Shown: positions 39,399-56,893 of the stretch, piece after piece
Numbering within the stretch: position 1 is the stretch's first letter
Layout: every line of letters begins with the position of its first letter
NCBI RefSeq assembly: GCF_019823065.1
Contig: NZ_CP081966.1
Coordinates: 4,309,501 to 4,373,500, forward strand
DNA: 64,000 nucleotides
Source of the DNA: Pseudomonas mosselii
GTDB taxonomy: Bacteria > Pseudomonadota > Gammaproteobacteria > Pseudomonadales > Pseudomonadaceae
Direction: 5' to 3'
Translations under genes and position numbers: made by a program
The notes under the pieces: model-generated
Told to the model about the DNA's origin: nothing
Databases searched by the model: none
What the model saw: the letters and a program-made list of their open reading frames with translations, nothing else

Positions 39399-39507
39399 TT
39401 GTACACAGGCTGACCCGTTTCTGCAGGTGGCCTTTTACCTATATAGCCGTTGTACGACCGTTTGTACGCACAAAAGATAAAACATTATTTGCTTTATTTG
39501 TACACAA
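39399..39507. promoter_or_regulatory. cluster of TTGTAC-type boxes in the gntR/permease divergent region
   Basis: The 358-bp gap 39293-39650 has no gene. It holds TTGTACACAG (39399-39408), TTGTACGACC (39450-39459), TTGTACGCACAA (39462-39473) and TTGTACACAA (39498-39507). The last is one base from the perfect TTGTATACAA found elsewhere. The cluster lies between the two divergent starts, as expected for an autoregulated operator region. Confidence 0.6.
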
Positions 39508-39650: not shown

Positions 39651-41000
39651 GTGGAAAGCCGCAAATCCGAAGCACCTACGCTGGATCTCGCCCCACCGCT
39701 CGAATCGGGCTGGCTGGAGCGGATTTTCAAACTCAAGCGACACGGCACGACCGTCAGGACCGAACTGATCGCCGGGGTGACCACCTTCATCACCATGGCC
39801 TACATCATCTTCGTCAACCCCAACATCATGGCCGACGCCGGTATCGACCACGGCGCGGCGTTCGTCGCCACCTGCATCGCCGCCGCCCTGGGCTGCCTGC
39901 TGATGGGCCTGTACGCCAACTGGCCTGTGGGCCTGGCGCCGGGCATGGGGCTCAACGCCTTTTTCACCTACACCGTGGTCGGCACCATGGGCTACAACTG
40001 GGAAACGGCGCTGGGGGCGGTATTCGTCTCGGGCGTGCTGTTCATGTTCCTGACGGTTTCGCGGGTGCGCGAGTGGCTACTCAACAGCATCCCGGTAAGC
40101 CTGCGCCATGCCATGGGAGCCGGCGTCGGATTGTTCCTCGGGCTGATCGGCCTGAAGACCGCCGGCATCATCGTCGACAGCCCGGCCACCCTGGTCAAGC
40201 TGGGCTCGCTGCATGAGCCCGGCCCGCTGCTGGCGGCCGTGTGCTTCCTGTTGATCGCCATCCTCAGCTACAAGCGGGTGTTCGGCGCGATCCTGATCAG
40301 CATCATCGGCGTCACCCTGGCCGGCTGGGGCCTGGGCTTGGTCAAGTTCGGCGGGGTAATGTCGATGCCGCCGAGCCTGGCGCCGACCTGGATGGCCATG
40401 GACGTGGCCGGGGTGTTCAACGTCAGCATGATCAGCGTGGTGCTGGCGTTCCTGTTCGTGCACATGTTCGACACCGCCGGCACGCTGATGGGCGTGGCCC
40501 AGCGCGCCAACCTGGTGGCGCCGGACGGACGCATCGAGAACCTGTCACGGGCGCTCAAGGCCGACAGCACCTCCAGCGTGTTCGGCGCGGTGGTCGGCGT
40601 GCCGCCGGTGACCAGCTACGTGGAAAGTGCCGCGGGTGTGGCGGCGGGTGGGCGTACCGGCCTGACGGCCGTGGTGGTCGGCGCGCTGTTCGTTGCCGCG
40701 ATGTTCTTCGCCCCGCTGGCCGGGATGATTCCGGCCTATGCCACCGCCGGCGCGTTGATCTACGTGGCGATGCTGATGATGGGCAGCATGGCGCATATCG
40801 AGTGGGACGAAGCCACCGACAGCATTCCGGCGATCGTCACGGTGATCATGATGCCGCTGACCTTCTCGGTGGCGGACGGCATCGCCCTGGGCTTCATCAG
40901 CTACGTGGCGCTGAAGGCGGGTACCGGCAAGTACAAGGAAATTTCGGCCAGCCTGTGGGTGCTGTGCGCCATCTTCATTGCGAAGTTTGTGTTCCTCTGA
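39651..41000 (+). CDS. NCS2 family guanine/hypoxanthine-type permease (AzgA group)
   Basis: Inner-membrane nucleobase transporter of 449 residues with about 12-14 helices. GTG start with TTGAGGAG at 39635-39642. Family motifs include the N-terminal ELIAGVTTFITMAYIIFVNP, GLAPGMGLNAFFTYT and the conserved MFDTAGTLMGVA and GVPPVTSYVESAAGV. These place it in the AzgA/PbuG group that takes up adenine, guanine or hypoxanthine, in keeping with guaD and xdhABC upstream. A hairpin follows at 41021. Confidence 0.93.
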   Translation: MESRKSEAPTLDLAPPLESGWLERIFKLKRHGTTVRTELIAGVTTFITMAYIIFVNPNIMADAGIDHGAAFVATCIAAALGCLLMGLYANWPVGLAPGMGLNAFFTYTVVGTMGYNWETALGAVFVSGVLFMFLTVSRVREWLLNSIPVSLRHAMGAGVGLFLGLIGLKTAGIIVDSPATLVKLGSLHEPGPLLAAVCFLLIAILSYKRVFGAILISIIGVTLAGWGLGLVKFGGVMSMPPSLAPTWMAMDVAGVFNVSMISVVLAFLFVHMFDTAGTLMGVAQRANLVAPDGRIENLSRALKADSTSSVFGAVVGVPPVTSYVESAAGVAAGGRTGLTAVVVGALFVAAMFFAPLAGMIPAYATAGALIYVAMLMMGSMAHIEWDEATDSIPAIVTVIMMPLTFSVADGIALGFISYVALKAGTGKYKEISASLWVLCAIFIAKFVFL

Positions 41001-42002: not shown

Positions 42003-42356
42003 CTAGCTTCCACGATAGGTCGAATAGCTGTACGGCGAAATCAACAGCGGCACGTGGTAGTGCTCCTGCTGCTCGTCGATACCGAAGCGCAGCACGACCA
42101 CGTCGAGGAACGCGGTGTCCGGCAGCTTCACGCCCTTGGCGCGGTAGTAGTCACCGGCGCTGAACTGCAATTGATAGACGCCGGTGCGATAGTCGTCGCC
42201 CTGCAGCAGCGGCGCGTCGACACGGCCATCACTGTTGGTCAGGGCGGTGTTCACCAGCTCCAGCTGCTGGCCTTCGACGCGGTACAGCTCGACCTTGATC
42301 GAGCTGCCCGGGCAGCCGTGCGCGGCGTCCAGTACGTGTGTGGTCAAACGTCCCAT
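42003..42356 (-). CDS. uraH: 5-hydroxyisourate hydrolase (transthyretin-like)
   Basis: Second step of urate breakdown, converting 5-hydroxyisourate to OHCU. 117 residues from ATG 42356, MGRLTTHVLDAAHGCPG, with AGGCG upstream. The transthyretin-related signature is complete, including the N-terminal catalytic histidine region, YHVPLLISPYSYSTY and the terminal YRGS. It is divergent from puuE across 378 bp carrying two TTGTA(T/C)ACAA sites. Confidence 0.96.
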   Translation of the reverse strand: MGRLTTHVLDAAHGCPGSSIKVELYRVEGQQLELVNTALTNSDGRVDAPLLQGDDYRTGVYQLQFSAGDYYRAKGVKLPDTAFLDVVVLRFGIDEQQEHYHVPLLISPYSYSTYRGS

Positions 42357-42464: not shown

Positions 42465-42474
42465 TTGTACACAA
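42465..42474. promoter_or_regulatory. TTGTACACAA box upstream of uraH
   Basis: ATTGTACACAAT, one base from the palindrome TTGTATACAA, lies 108 bp before the uraH start in the uraH/puuE divergent region (42357-42734). Apart from this box and the one at 42648, that 378-bp gap shows no gene, only AT-rich sequence likely to hold two promoters. Confidence 0.6.
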
Positions 42475-42647
42475 TTTTTTATCCCATCCTGCGCAACCTC
42501 TACAAAACAAGCCACCAGTCGCGAAGACAAGCGCCATGCTGCCGCTCTCACCATTTACTGACCAATCGGGCAGGTTTCTTGCAAGCCATTCTCACGCGAC
42601 AAATGGGAAGAAATGCGGAAAAACAGGCTTACAAAAGATTTCAGAAG

Positions 42648-42657
42648 TTGTATACAA
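42648..42657. promoter_or_regulatory. TTGTATACAA box upstream of puuE
   Basis: A perfect 10-bp palindrome lies 77 bp before the puuE GTG. Identical sites lie before the GlcG-like gene and gcl at 52.8-52.9 kb. FadR-subfamily GntR proteins bind comparable GT/AC dyads, so the neighbour at 38537 is the candidate binder. Confidence 0.7.
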
Positions 42658-42734
42658 TCAGCCCATCCGGTGGTGCGACATCCCGACGCGGCCCGCCCCA
42701 CCCACCGCATTAACGAACAAGAAGGAAGACTGCA

Positions 42735-43661
42735 GTGAGCGCTGACTACCCACGCGACCTGATCGGTTACGGCAACAACCCACCTCATCCGCAATGGCCG
42801 GGGAATGCCCGCATTGCGCTGTCCTTCGTGCTCAACTACGAAGAAGGTGGCGAGCGCAACATCCTGCACGGCGACAAGGAGTCCGAAGCGTTCCTTTCCG
42901 AAATGGTCGCCGCCCAGCCGCTGCAGGGCGTGCGCAACATGAGCATGGAGTCGCTCTACGAATACGGCAGCCGCGCCGGCGTCTGGCGCCTGCTCAAGCT
43001 GTTCAAGGACAGCGGCGTGCCGCTGACCATCTTCGCCGTGGCCATGGCCGCCCAGCGCCACCCTGACGTGATCCGCGCCATGGCCGAGGCCGGCCATGAG
43101 ATCTGCAGCCACGGCTACCGCTGGATCGACTACCAGTACATGGATGAAGCGCAAGAGCGCGAGCACATGCTCGAGGCCATCCGCATCCTCACCGAGATCA
43201 CCGGCGAGCGCCCCGTGGGCTGGTACACCGGCCGCACCGGCCCGAACACCCGGCGCCTGGTGATGGAGGAAGGCGGCTTCCTCTACGACAGCGACACCTA
43301 CGACGACGACCTGCCCTACTGGGAACCGAACAACCCGACCGACAAGCCGCACCTGGTGATCCCCTACACCCTGGACACCAACGACATGCGCTTCACCCAG
43401 GTCCAGGGCTTCAACTGCGGCGAGCAGTTCTTCCAGTACCTGAAGGACGCCTTCGACGTGCTCTACGCCGAGGGCGCCGAAGCACCGAAGATGCTCTCGA
43501 TCGGCCTGCACTGCCGCCTGGTCGGCCGTCCGGCGCGCCTGGCCGCGCTCAAGCGCTTCGTCGACTACGCCAAGAGCCACGAACAGGTCTGGTTCGCCCG
43601 GCGCGCGGACATCGCCCGCCACTGGCACGCCACCCACCCGTACAAGAAAGAGAACGCCTGA
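42735..43661 (+). CDS. puuE: allantoinase PuuE
   Basis: Cofactor-independent allantoinase of the polysaccharide deacetylase fold, 308 residues, hydrolysing allantoin to allantoate. GTG start with AAGGAAG about 7 nt upstream. Conserved segments are DLIGYGNNPPHPQWP, FVLNYEEGGE, GHEICSHGYRWIDY and WYTGRTGPNTRRL. Its stop overlaps the uraD start by one base, so the two are coupled. Confidence 0.96.
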   Translation: MSADYPRDLIGYGNNPPHPQWPGNARIALSFVLNYEEGGERNILHGDKESEAFLSEMVAAQPLQGVRNMSMESLYEYGSRAGVWRLLKLFKDSGVPLTIFAVAMAAQRHPDVIRAMAEAGHEICSHGYRWIDYQYMDEAQEREHMLEAIRILTEITGERPVGWYTGRTGPNTRRLVMEEGGFLYDSDTYDDDLPYWEPNNPTDKPHLVIPYTLDTNDMRFTQVQGFNCGEQFFQYLKDAFDVLYAEGAEAPKMLSIGLHCRLVGRPARLAALKRFVDYAKSHEQVWFARRADIARHWHATHPYKKENA

Positions 43662-44176
43662 TGACCGCCTTCAAGACCCTCAAGCCTTCCACCCTCGAGC
43701 GCGCCGCCTTCGTCGCCGCCTTCGCCGACATCTACGAGCACTCGCCGTGGGTCGCCGAGAAAGCCTACGACCTGGGCCAGCTGGCCGAGCTGGACGAGAT
43801 CGAGGCGCTGCATCAGCGCATGAGCGACATCCTGCTCAGCGCCAGCCATGCCGAGCAACTGGCACTGATCAACGCTCACCCGGACTTGGCCGGCAAGGCC
43901 GCCATCCAGGGCGAGCTGACCGAGTCGAGCACCAATGAACAGGCCGGCGCCGGCATCCACCAGTGCACCGCCGAGGAGTTCGCCCGCTTCACCGAACTGA
44001 ACGACGCCTACAAGGCCAAGTTCCAGTTCCCGTTCATCATGGCGGTCAAGGGCAGCAACCGGCACCAGATCCTCGCTGCCTTCGAAAAACGCATCCACAA
44101 CGACCAGGATGCCGAATTCAAGGAAGCCCTGGCACAAATCAACCTGATCGCCCTGTTCCGCCTGCTGCAGCTTTGA
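43661..44176 (+). CDS. uraD: OHCU decarboxylase
   Basis: Converts 2-oxo-4-hydroxy-4-carboxy-5-ureidoimidazoline to (S)-allantoin, 171 residues. The family motif HPDLAGKAAIQGELTESST and the later KFQFPFIMAVKG are present. The order puuE-uraD-allA matches P. putida-type clusters. It lies 104 bp before allA with no gene between; allantoicase, found at this point in some pseudomonads, is absent. Confidence 0.96.
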   Translation: MTAFKTLKPSTLERAAFVAAFADIYEHSPWVAEKAYDLGQLAELDEIEALHQRMSDILLSASHAEQLALINAHPDLAGKAAIQGELTESSTNEQAGAGIHQCTAEEFARFTELNDAYKAKFQFPFIMAVKGSNRHQILAAFEKRIHNDQDAEFKEALAQINLIALFRLLQL

Positions 44177-44280
44177 GGACTGCGTGCCCGCCTCGCCCGA
44201 GTGCGTGACGCGTCCGCACCCAGGGCCCGGCAGGCCGGTCCACCAGAATCCAGAACAACGAACATACAAGAGAGACCCGC

Positions 44281-44784
44281 ATGCGCACCCTGATGATCGA
44301 GCCCCTGACCAAAGAAGCCTTCGCCCCCTTCGGTGACGTGATCGAAACCGACGGCAGCGACCACTTCATGATCAACAACGGCTCGACCATGCGCTTCCAC
44401 AAGCTCGCCACGGTCGAGACCGCCGAGCCCGAGGACAAGGCGATCATCAGTATCTTCCGCGCCGACGCGCTGGAGATGCCGCTGACCGTACGCATGCTGG
44501 AACGCCATCCGCTGGGCAGCCAGGCTTTCATCCCGCTGCTCGGCAACCCCTTTCTGATCGTGGTCGCGCCAGTTGGCGATGCACCTGTATCAGGCTTGGT
44601 CCGAGCCTTCCGCAGCAATGGCAGGCAGGGCGTTAATTACCATCGCGGCGTCTGGCACCACCCGGTGCTGACGATCGAAAAGCGGGATGACTTCCTGGTG
44701 GTTGATCGCAGTGGTTCTGGCAACAACTGCGATGAGCATTACTTCCCCGAGGAACAGATGTTGATCCTCAATCCCCACCAATAA
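44281..44784 (+). CDS. allA: ureidoglycolate lyase
   Basis: Splits ureidoglycolate into glyoxylate and urea, 167 residues. Begins MRTLMIEPLTKEAFAPFGDVIE and carries FRADALEMPLTVRMLERHPLGSQAF and NYHRGVWHHPVL, typical of the AllA cupin. GAGAGA lies upstream. Its products are the substrates of the gcl operon and of the urea channel encoded about 8-15 kb away. Confidence 0.95.
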   Translation: MRTLMIEPLTKEAFAPFGDVIETDGSDHFMINNGSTMRFHKLATVETAEPEDKAIISIFRADALEMPLTVRMLERHPLGSQAFIPLLGNPFLIVVAPVGDAPVSGLVRAFRSNGRQGVNYHRGVWHHPVLTIEKRDDFLVVDRSGSGNNCDEHYFPEEQMLILNPHQ

Positions 44785-44829
44785 GAAAGGGTCGGTCATC
44801 GAGATGGTGACTGGCGAGAGGTACATACT

Positions 44830-46149
44830 GTGGAAGCACACCTTCACGAATGGCTGAACCTGAGCATTCGCTGGGTTCACATGATCACCGGCGTGGCCTG
44901 GATCGGTGCATCGTTCTACTTTGTCTGGCTGGAGAACCACCTGAACCGAAGCAACCCGCGCGATGGGTTGTCGGGTGACCTCTGGGCCATCCACGGCGGT
45001 GGTATCTATCACCTGGAGAAATACAAGCTCGCGCCGCCGAAAATGCCCGAGAACCTGCACTGGTTCAAATGGGAAGCCTACTTCACCTGGATGTCCGGGA
45101 TCGCCTTGCTGTGCGTGGTGTTCTATTGGAACCCGAGCCTCTACCTGCTGGCGCCCGGCAGCACCCTGAGCGGCGCCGAAGGGGTGGCCATCGGTATCGG
45201 TTCGCTGGTTGCCGGCTGGTTCATCTACGACTTCCTGTGCGACTCGCCCCTGGGCAAGCAGCCGGCGCTGCTGGGCGCCGTGCTGTTCGTGCTGATCATC
45301 GCCGCCTGCTGGGGCTTCAGCCTGGTGTTCAGCGGCCGTGGCGCCTACCTGCACACCGGCGCGATCATCGGCACCATCATGGTCGGCAACGTGTTCCGCA
45401 TCATCATGCCGGCCCAGCGCCAGCTGGTGGCGGCGATCGAGAACAACCAGACGCCCGACCCGGTGCTGCCGGCCAAGGGCCTGCTGCGCTCGCGCCACAA
45501 CAACTATTTCACCCTGCCGGTGCTGTTCATCATGATCAGCAACCACTTCCCGAGCACCTACGGCAGCCAGTACAACTGGTTGATCCTGGCCGGGATCGCG
45601 GTGGCCGCCGTATTGATCCGTCACTACTTCAACACCCGCCACGACAGCAACAAGTACGCCTGGACCCTGCCCGTCGGTGCCCTGGCGATGATCTGCCTGG
45701 CCTATGTGACCGGTCCCAAGCCGCTGCCAACCGCACCCGAGCAGGCCGCCGCCAAGGTCGAGTACCAGCCGCTGCCGGCCACTGCCGTCGGTGGCAAGAC
45801 CGCCGCCGAACTGCGCGCAGAAGAGGCCGCCAAGCCTGCCCAGGCACCCGCTGCGGAACCTGCCCAGGCTACGGCCCAGGCGGCCACCGGCAGCTTCGAC
45901 AAGATCCACACCGTCATCCAGGAACGCTGCACCGTGTGCCACTCGGCCAAGCCGACCAGCCCGCTGTTCAGCGCCGCCCCTGCCGGCGTGATGTTCGACA
46001 CCCCGCAGCAGATCCAGGCCCAGGCCGCGCGCATCCAGGCGCAGGCCGTCGCCAGCCAGATCATGCCGCTGGGCAACATCACCCAGATGACCGTCGAGGA
46101 GCGCAAGCTGGTCGGCGACTGGATCGCCAAAGGCGCGCAGGTCAACTGA
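44830..46149 (+). CDS. puuD: membrane-bound urate oxidase with C-terminal cytochrome c domain (PuuD)
   Basis: First step of urate oxidation. 439 residues from GTG 44830. About eight membrane helices begin with LNLSIRWVHMITGVAWIGASFYF, which carries the conserved histidine. After an Ala/Pro-rich linker (about residues 300-355) comes a cytochrome c domain with CTVCH at residues 367-371. The family is known as a cytochrome c-linked urate oxidase that feeds the respiratory chain rather than making peroxide, and it replaces the soluble uricase. Only 45 bp separate it from allA. Confidence 0.92.
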   Translation: MEAHLHEWLNLSIRWVHMITGVAWIGASFYFVWLENHLNRSNPRDGLSGDLWAIHGGGIYHLEKYKLAPPKMPENLHWFKWEAYFTWMSGIALLCVVFYWNPSLYLLAPGSTLSGAEGVAIGIGSLVAGWFIYDFLCDSPLGKQPALLGAVLFVLIIAACWGFSLVFSGRGAYLHTGAIIGTIMVGNVFRIIMPAQRQLVAAIENNQTPDPVLPAKGLLRSRHNNYFTLPVLFIMISNHFPSTYGSQYNWLILAGIAVAAVLIRHYFNTRHDSNKYAWTLPVGALAMICLAYVTGPKPLPTAPEQAAAKVEYQPLPATAVGGKTAAELRAEEAAKPAQAPAAEPAQATAQAATGSFDKIHTVIQERCTVCHSAKPTSPLFSAAPAGVMFDTPQQIQAQAARIQAQAVASQIMPLGNITQMTVEERKLVGDWIAKGAQVN

Positions 46150-46154
46150 GACAC

Positions 46155-46189
46155 CCCACGATTGCGTGGGAGCGGGCTTGCCCCGCGAT
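46155..46189. repeat. REP-like element downstream of puuD
   Basis: CGTGGGAGCGGGCTTGCCCC followed by GCGAT (46165-46189) is a single arm of the repeat family at 12609 and 23587. CCCACG at 46155-46160 can pair with CGTGGG at 46165-46170, forming a small hairpin 5 bp after the puuD stop. Confidence 0.6.
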
Positions 46190-46248
46190 GAGGCCGGTAC
46201 TCCCGGCCTCGCTTCCAAGCTCTACGTAACAAGCAAGCATCGAGCGTT

Positions 46249-46301
46249 CGGCTTCACGTGGGTCCCCAGCCTCCTTCACCGGAGCCTGCCACGTGAAGCC
46301 G
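46249..46301 (+). promoter_or_regulatory. structured leader hairpin before the xanthine-type permease
   Basis: CGGCTTCACGTGG (46249-46261) and 46289-46301 are exact complements over 13 bp. Inside, 46267-46274 pairs with 46281-46288 with one C-C mismatch, leaving a 5-nt bulge (46262-46266) and a 6-nt apical loop. It lies 42 bp before the permease start, inside the expected 5' untranslated leader. A regulatory RNA is possible; no recognised riboswitch consensus could be confirmed by eye. Confidence 0.5.
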
Positions 46302-46343
46302 CCCGCTTGGATCCGAGAATAAAAACAAAACTCGAGGTGCTGC

Positions 46344-47699
46344 ATGTCCGAGTCACCCAAGGCGTACATCCCTGTTGCGCCACCACGACAGCCCCTGCCC
46401 TTGTTCCAGCTGATCCTGGTGGGTCTGCAACACGTTCTGCTGATGTACGGGGGCGCCATCGCGGTGCCGCTGATCATCGGCCAGGCGGCGGGCCTGTCCC
46501 GCGAAGAAGTCGCCTTCCTGATCAACGCCGACCTGCTGGTCGCCGGCGTTGCCACCATCATCCAATCCTTCGGTATCGGCCCCGTGGGCATCCGCATGCC
46601 GGTCATGATGGGCGCCAGCTTCGCCGCCGTCGGCAGCATGGTGGCCATGGCCGGCATGCCCGGCGTCGGCCTGCAGGGAATCTTCGGCGCGACCATCGCC
46701 GCCGGGTTCTTCGGCATGCTGATCGCGCCGTTCATGTCCAAGGTCGTGCGCTTCTTCCCGCCGCTGGTGACCGGTACGGTCATCACCTCGATCGGCCTGT
46801 CGCTGTTCCCGGTGGCGGTCAACTGGGCCGGCGGCGGCCATGAGGCGCAAGCCTTCGGTGCGCCGATCTACCTGATGGTCGCCGGCCTGGTGCTGGCGGT
46901 GATCCTGCTGATCAACCGCTTCATGCGCGGCTTCTGGGTCAATGTGTCGGTACTGGTGGGCATGGGCCTGGGCTATGTGCTCGCCGGCTCCATCGGCATG
47001 GTCGACCTGTCGGGCCTGAGCGAGGCGCCGTGGCTGCAGGTGGTCACCCCCCTGCACTTCGGCATGCCGACCTTCAGCCTGGCGCCGATCCTGTCGATGT
47101 GCCTGGTGGTGGTGATCATCTTCGTCGAGTCCACGGGCATGTTCCTCGCCCTGGGCAAGGTGACCGACCGTGAAGTCACGCCGGGCATGCTGCGACGCGG
47201 CCTGCTGTGCGATGCCGGCGCGTCGTTCATCGCCGGTTTCTTCAACACCTTCACCCACTCTTCGTTCGCCCAGAACATCGGCCTGGTGCAGATGACCGGG
47301 GTTCGCTGCCGCTACGTCACGGTGATGGCCGGCGCGCTGCTGATCCTGCTCAGCCTGCTACCCAAGGCGGCCTTCCTGATCGCTTCGATTCCGCCCGCGG
47401 TACTGGGGGGCGCGTCCATCGCCATGTTCGGCATGGTCACCGCCACCGGGATCAAGATCCTCCAGGAAGCGGACATCGCCGACCGACGCAACCAGCTGCT
47501 GGTCGCGGTCAGCGTCGGTTTCGGCCTGATCCCGGTGGTGCGCCCGGAATTCTTCGCGCAGATGCCGCAGTGGATGGAGCCCATCACCCACAGTGGCATC
47601 GCCATGGCCACCCTCAGCGCCCTGGTGCTGAACCTGCTGTTCAACATCCTCGGCGGCGCCGACCGCGCCGCGCACAACGATGCCTGTCACCAGCATTGA
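46344..47699 (+). CDS. NCS2 family xanthine/urate permease
   Basis: Nucleobase:proton symporter of 451 residues with about 14 helices. Motifs typical of the xanthine/urate branch are GLQHVLLMYGGAIAVPLI, IFVESTGMFLALGKVTDREV and FNTFTHSSFAQNIGLVQMTG with the QNxG substrate signature. GAGGTG lies 7 nt before the ATG. Its place after puuD and before two Tsx-like channels suggests import of xanthine or urate. Exact specificity cannot be read from sequence. Confidence 0.93.
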   Translation: MSESPKAYIPVAPPRQPLPLFQLILVGLQHVLLMYGGAIAVPLIIGQAAGLSREEVAFLINADLLVAGVATIIQSFGIGPVGIRMPVMMGASFAAVGSMVAMAGMPGVGLQGIFGATIAAGFFGMLIAPFMSKVVRFFPPLVTGTVITSIGLSLFPVAVNWAGGGHEAQAFGAPIYLMVAGLVLAVILLINRFMRGFWVNVSVLVGMGLGYVLAGSIGMVDLSGLSEAPWLQVVTPLHFGMPTFSLAPILSMCLVVVIIFVESTGMFLALGKVTDREVTPGMLRRGLLCDAGASFIAGFFNTFTHSSFAQNIGLVQMTGVRCRYVTVMAGALLILLSLLPKAAFLIASIPPAVLGGASIAMFGMVTATGIKILQEADIADRRNQLLVAVSVGFGLIPVVRPEFFAQMPQWMEPITHSGIAMATLSALVLNLLFNILGGADRAAHNDACHQH

Positions 47700-47706
47700 G
47701 TGACCT

Positions 47707-47731
47707 GGGGCGGTGCCGTACCGGCCGCCCC
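47707..47731 (+). terminator. hairpin after the xanthine-type permease
   Basis: GGGGCGG (47707-47713) pairs with CCGCCCC (47725-47731), starting 7 bp past the stop. No T-run follows. It may limit read-through into the tsx-like gene 110 bp further on. Confidence 0.4.
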
Positions 47732-47840
47732 GTTCCAACCACGCGGTAACGCTGGACCGTCGGCCCGCCGGAATGGGCCGCCCGGGGCGCTTGCGCGCCG
47801 AAAAAGCCCTTACAAAAACAATAAGTCCGGGAATCACAAC

Positions 47841-48626
47841 ATGAAGCGCATCACCACGTCCGTCCTGCTGGGCAGCAGCCTGCTGGCCACCCTCCCCGCC
47901 CACGCCGGCGAATGGCTGCAATGGCACGGCGAAAGCCTGTCCTACCTGTACGGCAAGGACTTCAAGGTCAACCCCGACATCCAGCAGACCATCACCTTCG
48001 AACATGCCAACAAATGGAAGTACGGCGACACCTTCCTGTTCGTCGACAAGATCTTCTACAACGGCAAGGCCGACCCCGGCAAAGGCGTGACCACCTACTA
48101 CGGCGAGTTCAGCCCGCGCCTGTCGTTCGGCAAGATCTTCGAGCGCAACCTGGCCTTCGGTCCGATCAAGGACGTGCTGCTGGCCATGACCTACGAACGT
48201 GGCGAGGGCGACAACGAGGCCTACCTGATCGGCCCCGGCTTCGACCTGAACGTGCCCGGCTTCAACTACTTCACCTTGAATTTCTACGTGCGCAACACCG
48301 AAGGCAGCCGCCCCGGCGACAACGTCTGGCAGATCACCCCGGCCTGGTCGTACACCATCCCGGTGGGCAGGTCCGACATCCTGATCGACGGCTACATCGA
48401 CTGGGTGGTCGACAACGACCAGACCCGTCGCGGCACCTACCACGCCAACCTGCAGTTCAACCCGCAGGTCAAGTACGACCTGGGCAAGGCCCTGAACCTG
48501 GGCGCCAAGCAGCTCTACGTCGGCTTCGAATACAGCTACTGGAAGGACAAGTACGGCATCGACAGCCGCGGCAACGTGGACAGCAACCAGAGCGTGGCCA
48601 GTGCCCTGGTGAAGGTGCACTTCTGA
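47841..48626 (+). CDS. Tsx-like outer membrane channel (first copy)
   Basis: A 261-residue protein with a signal peptide cleaved after AHA (residue 22) and a 12-strand-type beta barrel of the nucleoside-specific channel (Tsx) family. It has repeated aromatic turns such as YYGEFSPRLSFGKIF and GDNVWQITPAWSYTIPVG and ends in phenylalanine, as outer membrane proteins do. Its place after a purine permease suggests passage of nucleosides or purine bases. It is strongly similar to the next gene. Confidence 0.9.
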   Translation: MKRITTSVLLGSSLLATLPAHAGEWLQWHGESLSYLYGKDFKVNPDIQQTITFEHANKWKYGDTFLFVDKIFYNGKADPGKGVTTYYGEFSPRLSFGKIFERNLAFGPIKDVLLAMTYERGEGDNEAYLIGPGFDLNVPGFNYFTLNFYVRNTEGSRPGDNVWQITPAWSYTIPVGRSDILIDGYIDWVVDNDQTRRGTYHANLQFNPQVKYDLGKALNLGAKQLYVGFEYSYWKDKYGIDSRGNVDSNQSVASALVKVHF

Positions 48627-48658
48627 AAAACTGACCGAACGCCCAAATTTGCACCACC

Positions 48659-48677
48659 GTGCTCCAGGACGGAGCAC
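48659..48677 (+). terminator. hairpin after the first tsx-like gene
   Basis: GTGCTCC (48659-48665) pairs perfectly with GGAGCAC (48671-48677), 32 bp past the stop, without a T-run. The 350-bp gap 48627-48976 holds no gene; besides this hairpin it has one sigma-54-like site at 48781. Confidence 0.35.
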
Positions 48678-48780
48678 TTGAGGCCCGGCGCGCAAGTGAG
48701 TAATCTGCGCGCCCCCTCGATCGGGGCGGGAAGGATCCCGCCCGCGTTTGCTGACCGCTCAGTCAATGTTTCCGGGCGGT

Positions 48781-48796
48781 TGGCCAACGTGTTGCC
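48781..48796 (+). promoter_or_regulatory. possible sigma-54 promoter of the second tsx-like gene
   Basis: TTGGCC-ACGTG-type spacing places GG at 48782-48783 and GC at 48794-48795 with TT before the GC, matching the -24/-12 spacing. Three of the less conserved bases differ from TGGCACG-N4-TTGC. It lies about 180 bp upstream of the gene. Nitrogen control of purine uptake would make it reasonable. Confidence 0.25.
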
Positions 48797-48976
48797 AGCG
48801 TGAAATACCCATTTCATCCGTTCAGAAAGACGTCGAGCAGGATGGTTGTGCCCAACGTGGAAAAGTTGGCGCAGCTCTTGCCAAACAGCTGTGGCCAATT
48901 GAAAAAAGCTGACCCAAAAGACAAGAACAGCGCCCGAGCGCTGACAACAGATCCAATCAAGGGAGCGACACTCGCA

Positions 48977-49759
48977 ATGCGTATCATCAATAGCCTGATC
49001 CTCGCCGGTGGTCTGCTGGCCTGCGGCGCCAGCCAAGCCGGCGACCTGCTGCAATGGCAGAACAACAGCCTGACCTACTTGTGGGGCAAGAACTTCAAGG
49101 TCAACCCCGAGATCCAGCAGACCGTGACCTTCGAGCACGCCGATGCGTGGAAGTACGGCGACAACTTCTTCTTCCTCGACAAGATCTTCTACCAGGGCAA
49201 GAAGGACGCCAACAACGGCCCCAACACCTACTACGGCGAGTTCAGCCCACGCCTGTCGTTCGGCAAGATCTTCGACCAGAAGCTCGAGTTCGGCCCGGTG
49301 AAGGATGTGCTGCTGGCAATGACCTACGAGTTCGGCGAGGGTGATACCGAGTCCTACCTGATCGGCCCCGGCTTCGACCTGGCCATCCCCGGCTTCGACT
49401 ACTTCCAGCTGAACTTCTACCAGCGCACCACCGACGGCAGCCGTCCGGGCGACAATGTCTGGCAGATCACCCCGGTGTGGTCCTACACCATTCCCGTGGG
49501 CTCGTCCGACATCCTGATCGACGGTTTCATGGATTGGGTGGTCGACAACGACGAGAACCGTCGCGGCACCTACCAGGCCAACCTGCACTTCAACCCGCAG
49601 GTCAAGTACGACCTGGGCAAGGCGCTGCACCTGGGCGAGAAGCAGTTGTACGTGGGTATCGAGTACGACTACTGGAAGAACAAGTACGGCATCAAGGACA
49701 GCGATGCCTTTACCACCGATCAGAACACCATGAGCTTCCTGGTGAAAGTTCACTTCTGA
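48977..49759 (+). CDS. Tsx-like outer membrane channel (second copy)
   Basis: A 260-residue paralogue of the preceding gene with its own signal peptide (cleavage after SQA, residue 21) and the same barrel motifs (YYGEFSPRLSFGKIF, DNVWQITPVWSYTIPVG), ending in VHF. Identity to the first copy looks high throughout, so a tandem duplication is likely. Start MRIINSLIL at 48977, with GGGAG upstream. It appears to have a separate promoter region. Confidence 0.9.
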   Translation: MRIINSLILAGGLLACGASQAGDLLQWQNNSLTYLWGKNFKVNPEIQQTVTFEHADAWKYGDNFFFLDKIFYQGKKDANNGPNTYYGEFSPRLSFGKIFDQKLEFGPVKDVLLAMTYEFGEGDTESYLIGPGFDLAIPGFDYFQLNFYQRTTDGSRPGDNVWQITPVWSYTIPVGSSDILIDGFMDWVVDNDENRRGTYQANLHFNPQVKYDLGKALHLGEKQLYVGIEYDYWKNKYGIKDSDAFTTDQNTMSFLVKVHF

Positions 49760-49777
49760 TCTGATGCCAGTTTAAAG

Positions 49778-49894
49778 CCTGTAAGAGCGGCCTTGCGTCG
49801 CGAAAGGGCTGCGCAGCAGCCCCGACGATTTCGCATGATGCCGAGGTCCTGGGGCCGCTTCGCGGCCCTTTCGCGACACAAGGCCGCTCATACA
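49778..49894. repeat. REP inverted pair after the second tsx-like gene
   Basis: CCTGTAAGAGCGGCCTTGCG at 49778 is the inverted counterpart of a segment ending ACAAGGCCGCTCATACAGG at 49894, with GCAGCAGCC and GGGGCCGC stems between. It is the same family as 9151, 52156, 55595, 56661 and 59588. Confidence 0.8.
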
Positions 49895-49925
49895 GGAGAT
49901 CCGAGGCAAGGCCCGGTCGGGCGCC

Positions 49926-50840
49926 TCAGTTTGCCGGTTTTACCGCCCGCCACACCTTGCCCGCGACAGCAACCGCCGCCAGCACCACCGCCCCGGCGAT
50001 CACTCCCGCCACACCATTGAGCAGTGCCCCGGTCAACGCCCCGCCCCGCCCTTCGCTGAACGCCTCGATGGCGTGATGCAGCGGCGCGATGCCGTGCACC
50101 AGGATGCCGCCGCCGACCAGGAACATGGCAGCGGTACCGACCACCGACAGGCCCTTCATCATGTAGGGCGCCGCGCGCAGGATGCCGTTACCGACCACGC
50201 GGGACAGGTTCGATGCCCGCTGCGTCATCCACAGGCCCAAGTCATCGAGCTTGACGATTCCCCCCACCAGGCCATAGACACCGATGGTCATGACCACAGC
50301 GATACCCGACAGCACAACGATCTGCTGGCTCAACGGCGCATCGGCGACGATGCCCAGGGTAATGGCGATGATTTCGGCGGACAGGATGAAGTCGGTGCGC
50401 ACCGCGCCCTTGATCTTGCTCTTCTCATAGGCGACCAGGTCGACATTGGCGTCGGCCAGCGCTTGCTTGCGCGCCTCGTGCTGCGCCTCGTCCTCGGCCT
50501 TGCTGTGCAGGAACTTGTGCGCCAGCTTCTCGAAGCCCTCGAAGCACAGGTAGGCGCCGCCGAGCATCAGCAGCGGTGTCACCGCCCAGGGAATGAACGC
50601 GCTGATCAGCAACGCCGCCGGCACCAGGATCGCCTTGTTCAGCAGCGAGCCCTTGGCCACCGCCCACACCACCGGTATCTCGCGTTCGGCGCGCACACCG
50701 GTGACCTGCTGGGCGTTGAGCGCCAGGTCATCACCCAGCACCCCTGCGGTCTTCTTTGCCGCGACCTTGGTCATCACCGAGACATCGTCGAGCACCGTGG
50801 CGATGTCGTCGATCAGTACCAACAAACTACTTCCTGCCAT
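49926..50840 (-). CDS. DUF808 family membrane protein (YedI-like)
   Basis: A 304-residue inner-membrane protein starting [21 protein letters not shown], with [22 protein letters not shown], a hallmark of the DUF808/YedI family, and several later helices. Function is unknown. It stands alone on the minus strand with its own promoter region and is not clearly linked to purine use. Confidence 0.9.
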
Positions 50841-50989
50841 GCACTACTCCATAAAAAGCGATCTATTCATCCTACGCCACGCAGTCCCATTCCCTGCCGT
50901 TTGGGAAGATCTGGCCTGCATATCCTATGGCAGGGCATTCCTAGCATAGCGAAGCCACTCCATCGTGCTTCAGACGACAAGGAATACCC

Positions 50990-51427
50990 ATGCTCAAACA
51001 CGCACTCTCGCTCACTCTGCCTGCGCTGCTCGCAGGCAACGTCATGGCCGCAACCATGGAATTCTGCCCCGCGCCGGCCGAAATCCAGAACACCAACGGC
51101 GTACTCACCGCCAGAGCAGAAAGCGGCGATGGCCAATGGCTCGGGCTGCTGAAAGACCAGAACAGCGTCGTGATCTCGTTCGACAGCGCCATATTCTACC
51201 CGTCCGATGGCAAGGTCGACGGCGTAGGCAGGCTGCGCGCCTGCACCTACAAGACTTCGGGAAAGCAGAGCATAGACATGCGCTACCGTACTGAAGTCAC
51301 CCCCGACATCCCAATCCGGCTCGCCAATGCACCAGCCTGGAAGCGACATGAGGGTCCCTTCGGCATCATCTATTTCGAGTGTCGCTCGCAAGACCTGCAG
51401 GGCTGTGCATTCCGGGAAGCCAGGTAA
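50990..51427 (+). CDS. small secreted protein, DUF3757-like
   Basis: A 145-residue protein with a clear signal peptide (MLKHALSLTLPALLAGNVMA) and a mature part beginning ATMEFCPAPAEIQ. It has four cysteines that could form two disulfides. The CPxPxEI start and length recall the DUF3757 family of pseudomonads, whose role is not known. It is monocistronic with a short leader containing AAGGAA. Confidence 0.65.
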   Translation: MLKHALSLTLPALLAGNVMAATMEFCPAPAEIQNTNGVLTARAESGDGQWLGLLKDQNSVVISFDSAIFYPSDGKVDGVGRLRACTYKTSGKQSIDMRYRTEVTPDIPIRLANAPAWKRHEGPFGIIYFECRSQDLQGCAFREAR

Positions 51428-51534
51428 TGCCATCCATGCCGGCCAGCACGGCTGGCCGGCATGGGCGTGGGATGCTTTGTACAAGGGTTCTTGCTACCAT
51501 CCGTGCTCGCAGCGTCAAAGGACCGTCCCCCACC

Positions 51535-52146
51535 ATGAGCACCATTCGCGAGCGCAACAAGGAACTGATCCTGCGCGCGGCCAGTGAAGAATTCGCCGAC
51601 AAGGGCTTCGCCGCCACCAAGACCAGCGACATCGCGGCCAAGGCCGGCCTGCCCAAGCCGAACGTGTACTACTACTTCAAGTCGAAGGAAAACCTCTACC
51701 GCGAGGTGCTCGAGAGCATCATCGCGCCGATCATGCAGGCCTCGACGCCGTTCAACGCCGACGGTGATCCGAAAGAGGTGCTCAGCGCGTACATCCGCTC
51801 GAAGATCCGCATCTCCCGCGACCTGCCCCACGCCTCCAAGGTGTTCGCCAGCGAGATCATGCATGGCGCGCCGCACCTGTCGCCACGCCAGGTCGAGCAG
51901 CTCAACGAGCAGGCCCGCCACAACATCGAATGCATCCAGCGCTGGATCGAGCGCGGTCAGATCGCCCATGTCGACCCGCACCACCTGATGTTCAGCATCT
52001 GGGCGGCGACGCAGACCTACGCGGATTTCGACTGGCAGATCGCCGTGGTGACCGGCAAGGCCAAGCTGGCCGACAGCGACTATGACGCGGCGGCGGAGAC
52101 AATCATCCGCCTGGTGTTGAAGGGCTGCGAGCCCGAGGCGGCCTGA
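51535..52146 (+). CDS. TetR family regulator with RutR-like C-terminal domain
   Basis: A 203-residue regulator starting MSTIRERNKELILRAASEEF. The helix-turn-helix is TKTSDIAAKAGLPKPNVYYYFKSKENLY. The C-terminal part, with FASEIMHGAPHL, RWIERGQIAHVDP and WAATQTYADFDWQI, follows the pattern of the RutR (YcdC) ligand domain that binds uracil or similar bases. No pyrimidine pathway is next to it, so a role in the purine or ureide genes is possible. The ORF can be extended upstream, but only this start fits the family. Confidence 0.88.
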   Translation: MSTIRERNKELILRAASEEFADKGFAATKTSDIAAKAGLPKPNVYYYFKSKENLYREVLESIIAPIMQASTPFNADGDPKEVLSAYIRSKIRISRDLPHASKVFASEIMHGAPHLSPRQVEQLNEQARHNIECIQRWIERGQIAHVDPHHLMFSIWAATQTYADFDWQIAVVTGKAKLADSDYDAAAETIIRLVLKGCEPEAA

Positions 52147-52155
52147 TAGGGCCAA

Positions 52156-52253
52156 TGGGGCTGCTGTGCAGCCCGTTCGCGACACAAGGCCGCTCCAGAG
52201 GTTACGCATTTCCCTGAGCGGCCTTGTGTCGCGATGGGCCGCAGAGCGGCCCC
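52156..52253. repeat. REP inverted pair between tetR and the GlcG-like gene
   Basis: Arms GGGGCTGCTGTGCAGCCC plus TTCGCGACACAAGGCCGCTC and the reverse partner GAGCGGCCTTGTGTCGCGA (52156-52253) lie between two converging genes. They could terminate both. Confidence 0.8.
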
Positions 52254-52266
52254 AAAATGACGAGCC

Positions 52267-52707
52267 TTACGCAGCAACCCCCGCATCCGCCGTCAGCCCC
52301 ACCTCTTCGATCGCACTGATCGCGCACTGCTCGTCGATATCCGAGGTATCGCCGCTGATCCCGACGGCCCCCAGCACCTTGCCGTCCCGATCACGGATCA
52401 GCACCCCGCCCGGCACCGGCACCACCGGCCGCTCGCCCAGCCCGTTCAGCGCGGCATAGAACGCCGGCCGCTGCTGCGAATCCAGCGCCAGCAGGCGCGA
52501 GCCCTTGCCCAGGGCCACCGCGCCCCAGGCCTTGCCGATGGCCACCTGCGGACGCAGCAGGGTGGCGCCATCCTCACGCTGCAGCGCCAGCAGGTGCCCG
52601 CCGGCATCCAGCACCGCCACGGTCAGCGGCGCGGCGTTGATCTTGCGGCCCGCGGCCAGCGCGGCGTTCACCACGCCGACAGCGTCTTTGAGGGTCAATG
52701 CGTTCAT
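52267..52707 (-). CDS. GlcG/HbpS family heme-binding-like protein
   Basis: A 146-residue protein of the DUF336 (GlcG/HbpS) family, start MNALTLKDAVGVVNAALAAG at 52707 with AGGACC upstream. Characteristic segments are AVLDAGGHLLALQREDGA, FYAALNGLGERPVVPVPGGV and GAVGISGDTSDIDEQCA. Members occur in glycolate/glyoxylate operons, though their job is unsettled. It is divergent from gcl, and each gene has a perfect TTGTATACAA box upstream. Confidence 0.9.
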   Translation of the reverse strand: MNALTLKDAVGVVNAALAAGRKINAAPLTVAVLDAGGHLLALQREDGATLLRPQVAIGKAWGAVALGKGSRLLALDSQQRPAFYAALNGLGERPVVPVPGGVLIRDRDGKVLGAVGISGDTSDIDEQCAISAIEEVGLTADAGVAA

Positions 52708-52789
52708 GAAAAGGTCCTCTTCTTGTTGTGAGAAGCCCTGAGGGCAGTTGAAAACCAGTAGACAGAATAGAACACAACGAAGGCACGCT

Positions 52790-52799
52790 TTGTATACAA
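52790..52799. promoter_or_regulatory. TTGTATACAA box on the GlcG-like gene side
   Basis: A perfect 10-bp palindrome lies 82 bp upstream of the GlcG-like start in the 257-bp divergent gap 52708-52964. It is identical to the boxes at 42648 and 52930. Confidence 0.7.
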
Positions 52800-52929
52800 T
52801 TATTTGGCTCAATCTCGCCAAGTGCGACGAAATGCCGCCTCATCGCCCAATGACCACTCAGTCAACGCCGCCGACGAAAATGGATTGACCTTTTGCGCCG
52901 AGCATGAATACACTCTGCCGCAACACAAG

Positions 52930-52939
52930 TTGTATACAA
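52930..52939. promoter_or_regulatory. TTGTATACAA box on the gcl side
   Basis: A perfect palindrome lies 25 bp before the gcl ATG, placed to overlap the promoter or start site, as expected for repression. It lies 140 bp from the partner box at 52790. Confidence 0.75.
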
Positions 52940-52964: not shown

Positions 52965-54740
52965 ATGAGCAAAATGAGAGCAATCGATGCAGCCGTTCTG
53001 GTCATGCGCCGTGAAGGTGTAGATACCGCGTTCGGCATTCCGGGGGCTGCCATCAACCCGCTGTACTCGGCCCTGAAGAAAGTCGGTGGCATCGATCACG
53101 TCCTCGCTCGCCACGTCGAAGGTGCCTCGCACATGGCCGAGGGCTACACCCGCGCCAACCCGGGCAACATCGGTGTGTGCATCGGCACCTCCGGCCCTGC
53201 CGGCACCGACATGGTCACCGGCCTGTACAGCGCCTCGGCCGACTCCATCCCGATCCTCTGCATCACCGGCCAGGCACCGCGCGCACGCCTGCACAAGGAA
53301 GACTTCCAGGCCGTCGACATCACCAGCATCGTCAAGCCGGTGACCAAGTGGGCAACCACCGTCCTGGAACCAGGTCAGGTGCCCTACGCCTTCCAGAAAG
53401 CCTTCTATGAAATGCGCACCGGCCGCCCGGGCCCAGTGCTGATCGACCTGCCGTTCGACGTACAGATGGCCGAGATCGAATTCGACATCGACGCCTACGA
53501 GCCGCTGCCAGTACACAAGCCACAAGCCAGCCGCGTACAGGCCGAGAAGGCCCTGGCCCTGCTCAATGACGCCGAGCGCCCGCTGCTGGTAGCCGGTGGC
53601 GGCATCATCAACGCCGACGCCAGCGACAAGCTGGTCGAGTTCGCCGAACTGACCGGCGTGCCGGTGATCCCGACCCTGATGGGCTGGGGCACCATCCCGG
53701 ACGACCACGAACTGATGGTCGGCATGGTCGGCCTGCAGACCTCGCACCGCTACGGCAACGCCACCCTGCTCAAATCCGACCTGGTGTTCGGCATCGGCAA
53801 CCGCTGGGCCAACCGCCACACCGGCTCCGTCGACGTCTACACCGAAGGCCGCAAGTTCGTGCATGTGGACATCGAGCCGACCCAGATCGGCCGCGTATTC
53901 ACTCCGGACCTGGGTATCGTTTCCGATGCTGGCAAGGCACTGGACGTGTTCCTGGAAGTAGCCCGCGAGTGGAAAGCCGCCGGCAAGCTCAAGTGCCGCA
54001 AGGCCTGGCTGGAAGACTGCCAGCAGCGCAAGGCCACCCTGCAGCGCAAGACCCACTTCGACAACGTGCCGGTCAAGCCGCAGCGCGTGTACGAAGAGAT
54101 GAACCAGGTGTTCGGCAAGGACACCTGCTACGTCAGCACCATTGGCCTGTCGCAGATCGCCGGCGCGCAGTTCCTGCACGTGTACAAGCCACGCCACTGG
54201 ATCAACTGCGGCCAGGCCGGCCCGCTGGGCTGGACCATCCCGGCCGCCCTCGGCGTGGTCAAGGCCGATCCGAAGCGCAAGGTCGTCGCGCTCTCCGGTG
54301 ACTACGACTTCCAGTTCATGATCGAAGAACTGGCGGTGGGCGCGCAGTTCAACCTGCCGTACGTCCACGTGCTGGTGAACAATGCCTACCTCGGCCTGAT
54401 CCGCCAGGCCCAGCGTGGCTTCGACATGGATTACTGTGTACAACTGGCCTTCGAGAACATCAACGCCACCGACGCCGCCACCTACGGTGTCGACCACGTC
54501 GCCGTGGTCGAAGGCCTGGGCTGCAAGGCCCTGCGCGTGTTCGAACCGGCCGACATCGCTCCTGCCCTGCTCAAGGCGCAGAAGATGGCCGAAGAGTTCC
54601 GTGTGCCGGTGGTGGTCGAAGTGATTCTCGAGCGCGTGACCAACATTTCCATGGGCACCGAGATCAACGCGGTCAACGAGTTCGAAGACCTCGCCCTGGT
54701 CGGCAACGACGCGCCGACCGCCATCTCGCTGCTGGACTGA
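52965..54740 (+). CDS. gcl: glyoxylate carboligase (tartronate-semialdehyde synthase)
   Basis: Thiamine-diphosphate enzyme of 591 residues that condenses two glyoxylate molecules to tartronate semialdehyde with loss of CO2. It has the three-domain ThDP fold: N-terminal pyrimidine-binding domain with [18 protein letters not shown] and [12 protein letters not shown], a central FAD-type domain, and the C-terminal domain with [18 protein letters not shown]. The position of the usual catalytic glutamate is taken by valine in Gcl proteins, and the FGIPGAA context here fits that. It opens the hyi-glxR-ttuD-pyk series. Confidence 0.97.
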
Positions 54741-54794: not shown

Positions 54795-55577
54795 ATGCCT
54801 CGCTTCGCCGCCAACCTGTCCATGCTGTTCACCGAACAGGACTTCCTGGCCCGCTTCAAGGCCGCCGCCGACGCTGGTTTCAGCGGTGTCGAATACCTCT
54901 TCCCGTACGATTTCAGCGCCGCCGAGATCAAGCAGCAGCTCGACGCCCACGGCCTGACCCAGGTGCTGTTCAACCTGCCGGCCGGCGACTGGTCCAAGGG
55001 TGAGCGCGGCATCACCTGCCACCCCGACCGCGTCGAGGAGTTCCGCGCTGGCGTCGACAAGGCCATCGAGTACGCCAAGGTGCTGGGCAACACCCAGGTC
55101 AACGCCCTGGCCGGCATTCGCCCCGAGGGCCTGGACTGCGCCACCGTGCGCAAGACCTTCGTCGACAACCTGCGCTACGCCGCCGACAAGCTCAAGGCCG
55201 CCGGGATCCGCCTGGTCATGGAAATGATCAACACCCGCGACATCCCGGGCTTCTACCTGAACACCACGAAACAGGCCCTGGAGATCCAGGCCGAGGTGGG
55301 CAGCGACAACCTGTTCCTGCAGTACGACATCTACCACATGCAGATCATGGAAGGTGACCTGGCCCGCACCCTGGAAACCAACCTGAAGCTGATCAACCAC
55401 GTGCAGCTGGCCGACAACCCGGGCCGCCACGAGCCGGGCACCGGCGAGATCAACTACCGCTTCCTGTTCGAGCACCTGGACCGCATCGGCTACCAGGGCT
55501 GGGTGGGCGCGGAGTACAAGCCCAAGACCACCACCGAGGCGGGCCTGGGCTGGCTCAAGACCCACAACGCAATTTAA
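54795..55577 (+). CDS. hyi: hydroxypyruvate isomerase
   Basis: Interconverts hydroxypyruvate and tartronate semialdehyde, 260 residues, a TIM-barrel of the xylose isomerase-like family. Visible segments are PRFAANLSMLFTEQDFLARF, FNLPAGDWSKGERGI, MEMINTRDIPGF and YDIYHMQIMEGDL, with metal-type Glu, Asp and His. AAGGAG lies 8 nt upstream. It sits between gcl and glxR as in many gamma- and betaproteobacteria. Confidence 0.95.
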   Translation: MPRFAANLSMLFTEQDFLARFKAAADAGFSGVEYLFPYDFSAAEIKQQLDAHGLTQVLFNLPAGDWSKGERGITCHPDRVEEFRAGVDKAIEYAKVLGNTQVNALAGIRPEGLDCATVRKTFVDNLRYAADKLKAAGIRLVMEMINTRDIPGFYLNTTKQALEIQAEVGSDNLFLQYDIYHMQIMEGDLARTLETNLKLINHVQLADNPGRHEPGTGEINYRFLFEHLDRIGYQGWVGAEYKPKTTTEAGLGWLKTHNAI

Positions 55578-55594
55578 GACCCACGCGGAACTGT

Positions 55595-55713
55595 TGTAGG
55601 AGCGGCCTTGTGTCGCGAAAGGGCGGCGCAGCAGCCCCCGGCAATCTTCCGGCGTGACTGAGATCGTGGGGCCGCTACGCGCCCCTTTCGCGACACAAGG
55701 CCGCTCCTACAGG
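55595..55713. repeat. REP inverted pair between hyi and glxR
   Basis: TGTAGGAGCGGCCTTGTGTC at 55595 and its inverted copy ending near 55713 enclose GCAGCAGCC and GGGGCCGC stems. This copy is full length and lies within the presumed gcl operon. Confidence 0.85.
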
Positions 55714-55757
55714 GGCCTGGTCGCCTGTTCATACAAATACAAAGAGGCAGAACTCTC

Positions 55758-56651: not shown

Positions 56652-56660
56652 TTTGAATCC

Positions 56661-56748
56661 GGGGGCTGCTGTGCAGCCCGCTCTACAGGCGGTACGCAAT
56701 CCCCTGTAGGAGCGGCCTTGTGTCGCGAAAGGGGCGCAAAGCGCCCCC
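56661..56748. repeat. truncated REP inverted pair between glxR and ttuD
   Basis: The right arm CCCTGTAGGAGCGGCCTTGT and following GTCGCGAAAGG is complete (56702-56732), but the left arm keeps only GGGGCTGCTGTGCAGCCC and CTCTACAGG, having lost the middle 20 or so bases. It is the only clearly deleted member of the family in the window. Confidence 0.75.
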
Positions 56749-56893
56749 ACGATTCCAGATCCAACACCGCTGAACCTGCAACCACAGGTCCAGTGATGAC
56801 ACCGAGCAACACCCGCCCCTGGTTCGGCCTGCACGGAGGCAGTTCCAGGGGCGTTTTCGATTGTGCAAAACAACAAGAATCTGGGAGCCTGCC

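Follow-up and report, generated by a model that had tools for sequence, protein, structure and literature searches.

Paired palindromes at purine and glyoxylate promoters of Pseudomonas, with a spacing pattern suggestive of repression loops by UgmR (GclR)

What joins purine breakdown to glyoxylate assimilation in a Pseudomonas genome, and why do the palindromes that mark the promoters of both come in pairs? We investigated these questions in a 64,000-nucleotide (nt) stretch of Pseudomonas mosselii DNA (GCF_019823065.1, NZ_CP081966.1, 4,309,501-4,373,500; genome 6.35 Mb), hereafter the window, which carries the regulator gene ugmR with ncs2A, uraH and puuE, and the divergent genes glcG and gcl. 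The explanation that fits best as a whole, to which we give a probability of roughly 0.68 from sequence comparison, is that the palindromes are operators of the GntR-type repressor UgmR (= GclR) and that paired operators act by looping. Its parts stand unequally: the TTGTAYACAA sites are almost certainly UgmR operators, and two bound dimers probably join into a repression loop, at least at uraH/puuE and glcG/gcl.

A palindrome at purine and glyoxylate promoters

An earlier note, made from the letters of this stretch alone, reported exact copies of TTGTATACAA at three promoters and one-mismatch copies, TTGTACACAA, at two, all five of them intergenic, as is the case; it missed a further site at 39399-39408, the paired layout and the helical phasing of the pairs. 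The putative operators are as follows (window coordinates).

39399..39408, plus strand: second ugmR/ncs2A operator TTGTACACAG, 99 bp from the main one (sequence; absent from the earlier note)
39498..39507, plus strand: main ugmR/ncs2A operator TTGTACACAA, one mismatch (motif scan)
42465..42474, plus strand: uraH-side operator TTGTACACAA, one mismatch, with the same centre in 59/59 loci (motif scan)
42648..42657, plus strand: puuE-side operator TTGTATACAA, present in 59/59 loci (motif scan)
52790..52799, plus strand: distal (glcG-side) operator TTGTATACAA, 140 bp from the gcl operator (motif scan)
52930..52939, plus strand: proximal gcl operator TTGTATACAA, directly downstream of a predicted promoter (motif scan)

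Within the window, a scan allowing one mismatch gave 6 matches against a shuffle mean of 0.11, and none of 100 shuffles reached 6; with the near-invariance of the sites across species, this bears out the earlier claim that they are not a product of chance. Across the whole genome, up to one mismatch yielded 33 forward matches (10 exact, 23 with one mismatch) against 16 for a reversed-pattern control, which puts roughly half of the degenerate matches down to background, while exact copies of TTGTATACAA numbered 10 against 0.6 predicted from base composition. Five of these ten accompany genes of purine or glyoxylate metabolism (puuE, glcG, gcl, an NCS1 permease gene and an NCS2 xanthine permease gene), as do three (ncs2A, uraH, NCS1) of six genome copies with the centre AC/GT. 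The motif is not evenly spread; it is enriched at purine and glyoxylate genes and not confined to them. The xanthine permease operator lies about 70-80 bp ahead of the inferred start codon and is paired with a one-mismatch copy at a distance of 103 bp. The NCS1 permease gene, found in 21 of 57 relatives, has TTGTATACAA upstream in 19 of the 21, with a second site 258-262 bp off in 9 loci (2 exact, 7 with one mismatch).

We identified a TTGTNNACAA site upstream of ugmR in 80/80 loci and of ncs2A in 72/72, and two between uraH and puuE in 59/59, in a set comprising the best 80 of 544 relatives (1.57 Mb in total; almost all with Pseudomonas in the record title). These two divergent regions hold 199 of the 212 TTGTNNACAA sites in the 1.57 Mb, and the 13 sites outside them all have CG or CC at the centre. 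For gcl, we examined 127 copies from 125 genomes in a sample of 149 from the genus; 131 places matched gcl at 76% identity or more or held a recognizable piece of it, and four were omitted (that of G123, the split G060 copy and two further G090 copies). The motif was present at 114 of the 127, twice at 105 of them, and all 219 sites read exactly TTGTATACAA. Within the genus the centre is consistent for each promoter, being AT at gcl, glcG and puuE and AC at uraH, with AC in 53 of 73 ncs2A sites; in the genus g9, the assignment is swapped at gcl and uraH. One motif therefore joins ureide breakdown and glyoxylate assimilation, as the earlier note had proposed, and the lack of conservation at orthologous promoters that it named as a refutation did not occur.

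The operator is absent from gcl copies with a LysR neighbour. An exact operator is missing from 13 gcl copies of the genus sample. In 12 of them, a divergent LysR gene stands where glcG would be; the other (G042) retains glcG and has two one-mismatch sites. In a second sample, of 30 genomes from six other genera, gcl was found in 26, with a site at -35 or -36 in all 19 copies beside glcG and none at the 7 beside LysR, so that 0 of the 19 LysR-adjoining copies in the two samples carry the operator. The regulator, UgmR, is found (threshold E 1e-60) in 136 of the 149 genomes, and 12 of the 13 without it also lack gcl, the sole exception, G076, being a fragmented assembly. The operator is thus found at both the purine cluster and gcl and is kept together with the regulator, as in a regulon. 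UgmR is retained without gcl in 10/149 genomes, of which G018, G037, G126 and G133 keep the uraH/puuE pair, at 182-184 bp.

Spacing of the paired sites

Three divergent promoters of the window (ugmR/ncs2A, uraH/puuE and glcG/gcl) carry two sites apiece, an arrangement typical of looping repressors that recurs as an exact pair upstream of 105 of the 127 gcl copies. At ugmR/ncs2A, TTGTACACAG lies 97-99 bp from the main site in 71/72 loci; in the one remaining locus, an exact operator takes its place at 99 bp.

For uraH/puuE, a search of 298 genomes identified exact pairs at 160-190 bp in 58 and at 191-221 bp in 174. Among the 208 pairs listed, which leave out 24 of the 174 genomes in the latter class, spacings fall at 175 (1), 178-184 (57), 193-196 (90), 203-208 (57) and 215-218 bp (3), with none at 185-192, 197-202 or 209-214 bp. 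On an 85-genome tree, all 16 jumps of at least 4 bp deviated by no more than 2 bp from a multiple of 11 (equalled by 1 of 20,000 simulations), and on a 59-locus tree all 10 jumps were in phase (p 4.5e-4); the two sets draw on one genus and are not independent of each other.

For gcl, the 105 pairs have spacings of 62, 106, 116, 127-130, 137-141 and 147 bp. Teeth fixed in advance (139 plus or minus multiples of 11.1, tolerance 2 bp) were then compared with 398 genomes, the glcG/gcl identity of places in previously unsampled genomes being judged by the look of the sequence. Pairs of 106-136 bp occurred in 50, at 106 (2), 116-118 (3) and 127-130 bp (45), and 48 of these were within 2 bp of a tooth, the two misses, at 130 bp, being previously known; a 164-bp pair in G086, on a contig other than its 116-bp pair, was excluded from the gcl count. 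All 30 genomes outside the first sample were within 2 bp of a tooth, and as 25 of them share 128 bp they possibly reflect few events.

The fitted period was 11.54 +/- 0.10 bp over tips and 10.86 +/- 0.41 over distinct values for uraH/puuE, and 10.81 +/- 0.18 and 11.08 +/- 0.44, respectively, for gcl with the 62- and 147-bp pairs excluded. As a control, operator-to-start-codon distances (uraH, puuE, ugmR) shift by 1-3 bp, with four larger jumps of 10, 12, 71 and 72 bp, a number too small to make the control a strong one. In this genus, operator spacing keeps its helical phase at uraH/puuE and, for pairs shorter than 142 bp, at gcl; the constraint is weaker in other genera and above 141 bp. This comb of about 11 bp is a direct result, as are the sites, their conservation and their pairing. 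A probable account of it, given somewhat less weight than looping itself, is a loop constraint under which insertions and deletions between UgmR operator pairs have been kept almost only as whole turns across several hundred Pseudomonas genomes. The comb makes looping by UgmR a testable proposal.

Two putative promoter elements lie between the paired operators.

42569..42582, plus strand: sigma54-like -24/-12 element (GG-N10-GC) in a conserved block, a possible puuE promoter (sequence; the sigma54 reading is our assumption)
52885..52914, plus strand: predicted gcl promoter, -35 TTGACC, 18-bp spacer, -10 TACACT (consensus match only)

The uraH/puuE block (window 42560-42590) occurs in its strict form in 47/59 loci, where its distance is 74-76 or 86 bp to one operator and 108-109, 118-121 or 130 bp to the other. 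It may signify that ureide breakdown is under nitrogen control. Between the gcl operators conservation is low, and no conserved block was found there besides the gcl promoter. TTGACC lies between the operators in 104 of the 105 gcl promoters that have two, and in 102 of these its distance from the proximal operator is 43-45 bp; the distal operator lies 83-85 bp from the -35 element in 16 of the 104 and 93-97 bp in 82, mostly differing by steps of about 11 bp, the remainder being single cases at 18, 61, 72 and 104 bp and two at 113 bp.

UgmR as the candidate binder, and rival accounts

The regulator gene is the following.

38537..39292, minus strand: ugmR/gclR, a GntR/FCD repressor of 251 amino acids, the presumed binder of all the operators (Pfam PF00392 and PF07729 above cutoff)

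From its gene context and the literature, we infer that its product corresponds to GclR of P. putida and UgmR of P. aeruginosa (PA1520). The gene adjoins the purine permease and uraH/puuE genes, as expected for the UgmR/GclR regulon. Published work supplies the repression, its relief by uric acid and the binding of the repressor ahead of gcl and the allantoin cluster. GclR (PP_4283) is a GntR repressor encoded 12 kb from the gcl genes and linked to xanthine metabolism (PMC13357446), and deletion of gclR switches on the gcl pathway and lets P. putida KT2440 use ethylene glycol for growth (PMC11166783). UgmR bound upstream of gcl and the allantoin cluster in P. aeruginosa (PMC12694930, citing Xu 2022); in that account uric acid, and not allantoin, relieves UgmR although gcl is induced by allantoin (PMC12694930), a question raised there on which our finding touches. 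Since these papers already join the purine and glyoxylate genes under GclR/UgmR, the shared regulator itself was known, and the core idea of the earlier note, which named this GntR protein, is right and not new; the motif upstream of ugmR in 80/80 loci agrees with it. A data set from systematic evolution of ligands by exponential enrichment (SELEX), cited in PMC12694930, includes a UgmR motif at gcl, and the operator letters could therefore already be in print. Added here are the operator map, the paired operators, the swap with a LysR neighbour, the comb of about 11 bp and the operators of the NCS1 and xanthine permease genes.

In the proposed mechanism, UgmR would bind TTGTAYACAA and repress its own gene, the purine permeases, uraH, the puuE operon, glcG and gcl; uric acid, the inducer according to PMC12694930, would lift this repression; and two UgmR dimers on paired operators would bridge the intervening DNA into a repression loop. 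We infer from the conservation and spacing of the sites that UgmR binds exactly these letters, forms the bridging assembly and loops the DNA. A monomer model of UgmR has six FCD helices (90-114, 117-135, 139-157, 160-180, 190-201 and 205-221), with a mean predicted local distance difference test (pLDDT) score of 68.7 overall and mostly above 80 across these helices. The VanR group of FCD/GntR proteins is set apart by six rather than seven FCD helices (PMC7797058), and UgmR, with a GntR winged helix-turn-helix, an FCD domain and six modelled FCD helices, agrees with this definition. Some VanR-group members have three metal-binding histidines; H150, H193 and H215 of UgmR, which are invariant across 24 sequences, may be their counterparts.

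Several results weigh against this explanation. The UgmR model fits dimeric relatives as well or better. Half of the exact genome copies lie near other genes (azurin; a DUF748 gene alongside an LsrG-like open reading frame (ORF) that scores below cutoff; an ORF with no family match; hemE; lipoamide dehydrogenase), and a window match lies upstream of a ccoN-type gene, so that the earlier claim that the palindrome recurs only at functionally joined starts fails, while the regulon signal and the candidate regulator of that note remain. Tree tips are non-independent, and the p-values take jump sizes as uniform. For gcl, only 6 of 8 jumps were in phase (simulated p about 0.07), the pair at 147 bp is off the comb, and above 141 bp only one of three gcl-type pairs, at 151 bp, agreed with the preset teeth; those at 146 bp and at 147 bp, the latter already known, did not. 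Two of the four large operator-to-start-codon jumps also fit the comb. At ugmR/ncs2A, the 97-99 bp pair is out of phase with the other pairs, and the spacing in other genera is scattered (109-130, 160-161, 171, 185 and 340-358 bp). At uraH/puuE in those genera, the nearest tooth is at most 3.5 bp away for 26 of 29 pairs, a loose tolerance that takes in about 63% of positions, and the pairs at 133, 168 and 201 bp are off the comb; gcl pairs are in phase in 11 of 19 (139 or 149 bp), and the other 8, all of g9 and at 155-157 bp with a one-mismatch distal site, are not.

The 11-bp register of the uraH/puuE block with both operators counts on the same side, because phasing of a promoter or activator could make the comb there. 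The corresponding alternative, that each operator works alone and that promoters or an activator between them are held on one helix face, is unlikely in our judgement, and is the strongest of those considered. It draws on the phased block in 47/59 loci and on a survey in which 71 of 100 double-site divergent regions of FadR-subfamily regulators were classed as independent sites (PMC4494728). At gcl, little is conserved between the operators beyond the promoter, yet the distal operator shifts relative to the -35 element mostly by steps of about 11 bp; the uraH/puuE and glcG/gcl regions have paired operators in common, and no other common element was seen between them. We consider it improbable that the comb was merely inherited, with a few old insertions, periodic by luck, spread by descent. 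The relatedness of the tips, a gcl tree built from about 360 nt, the 6/8 gcl jumps and the single spacing of 25/30 new genomes would suit such a history, whereas the 16/16 and 10/10 uraH/puuE jumps in phase, and teeth reached from both sides, do not.

The identity of the binder leaves less room for doubt. That the palindrome is bound by another protein, either a RutR-like TetR protein (51535-52146) or a UgmR paralogue (50% identity, G000:C1:4084495), seems very improbable, even though the RutR-like gene adjoins glcG and the authors of PMC12694930 regard PA1504, a RutR-like TetR gene, as a suspect in how gcl responds to allantoin. The form GT-N2-AC is among those listed for FadR-subfamily GntR proteins (PMC4494728), the motif precedes ugmR in every locus of the set, no such site occurs in the 4.5 kb around the paralogue, and the published binder is UgmR (PMC12694930). 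Least credible of all is a chance origin of the copies in AT-rich intergenic sequence; the reversed-pattern control makes about half of the degenerate matches background, and the shuffles and the near-invariance across species speak against chance for the sites described here. The RutR-like gene itself falls below RutR cutoffs.

Related systems and neighbouring genes

The system described here agrees with UgmR (PA1520) and GclR (PP_4283) in regulator, gene neighbourhood, targets (the gcl cluster and the allantoin/purine cluster) and presumed relief by uric acid (PMC12694930, PMC13357446); the operator letters, paired layout, helical phasing and permease targets go beyond those two accounts in the portions available to us. 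Ethylene glycol is a monomer of poly(ethylene terephthalate) (PET) (PMC11166783), and knowledge of the GclR operators and their layout would permit tuning in place of deletion. TtdR, a LysR protein whose gene lies 5' of gcl, activates gcl in P. umsongensis GO16 (PMC13357446). It shares this target with UgmR but is an activator, and the LysR-adjoining gcl copies here lack the operator; we do not assume that their LysR genes are TtdR orthologues.

Atu1419 of Agrobacterium fabrum, from the VanR group, has the same fold class and likewise a 10-bp palindrome, ATGTATACAT in its case; two copies lie 190 bp apart, and a tetramer and DNA looping have been proposed (PMC7797058). In contrast to UgmR, it has another regulon and effector, and its looping was proposed from structure, that of UgmR from comparative spacing. 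Lac repressor loops also involve two operators, and lac repression oscillates with their spacing; looping models for Escherichia coli gave 11.60, 11.08 and, without HU, 10.95 bp per turn, and the comb period near 11 bp agrees with these in vivo fits for lac loops (PMC1762422). The lac repressor is an unrelated protein, and its spacings were engineered, whereas those of UgmR are natural variation. If the looping interpretation is correct, UgmR would join Atu1419 and AraR as another GntR-family repressor that loops DNA, helical constraint would be readable from genomes alone, and spacing combs could become a general, experiment-free loop finder. AraR of Bacillus subtilis has a GntR-type DNA-binding domain in common with UgmR, and belongs to a different GntR subfamily (AraR) with a sugar regulon; a 2001 paper cited in PMC4494728 has looping in its title.

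The genes of the window that border or follow these promoters are listed below.

39651..41000, plus strand: ncs2A, NCS2-type purine permease (PF00860)
42003..42356, minus strand: uraH, hydroxyisourate hydrolase (TIGR02962 above cutoff)
42735..43661, plus strand: puuE, allantoinase (TIGR03212 above cutoff)
52267..52707, minus strand: GlcG/HbpS-like gene, divergent from gcl (PF03928)
52965..54740, plus strand: gcl, glyoxylate carboligase (TIGR01504 above cutoff)
54795..59580, plus strand: hyi, glxR-like, ttuD-like and pykF-like genes after gcl (TIGR03234 for hyi; Pfam)

The names glxR, ttuD and pykF, unlike hyi, are presumed, partly from gene order. The window additionally encodes uraD, ureidoglycolate lyase, a urate-oxidase-domain protein and a second Xan_ur_permease-family protein, and its gene set appears to cover much of the route from purines through glyoxylate to pyruvate. 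A urea transporter gene (59789-60664) follows the gcl-pykF genes, in keeping with ureide breakdown yielding urea as its other product.

Finally, we noted a few features outside this route. The sixth match in the window, TTGTGTACAA, lies at 3521-3530, upstream of the ccoN-type oxidase gene. The exact TTGTATACAA copies near the azurin, hemE and lipoamide dehydrogenase genes (loci L001, L009 and L010, at position 1501-1510 in each) could serve another GntR regulator. Within the purine cluster, an orphan RHS repeat-associated core piece (TIGR03696) occupies 41154-41930, between the NCS2 permease gene and uraH.

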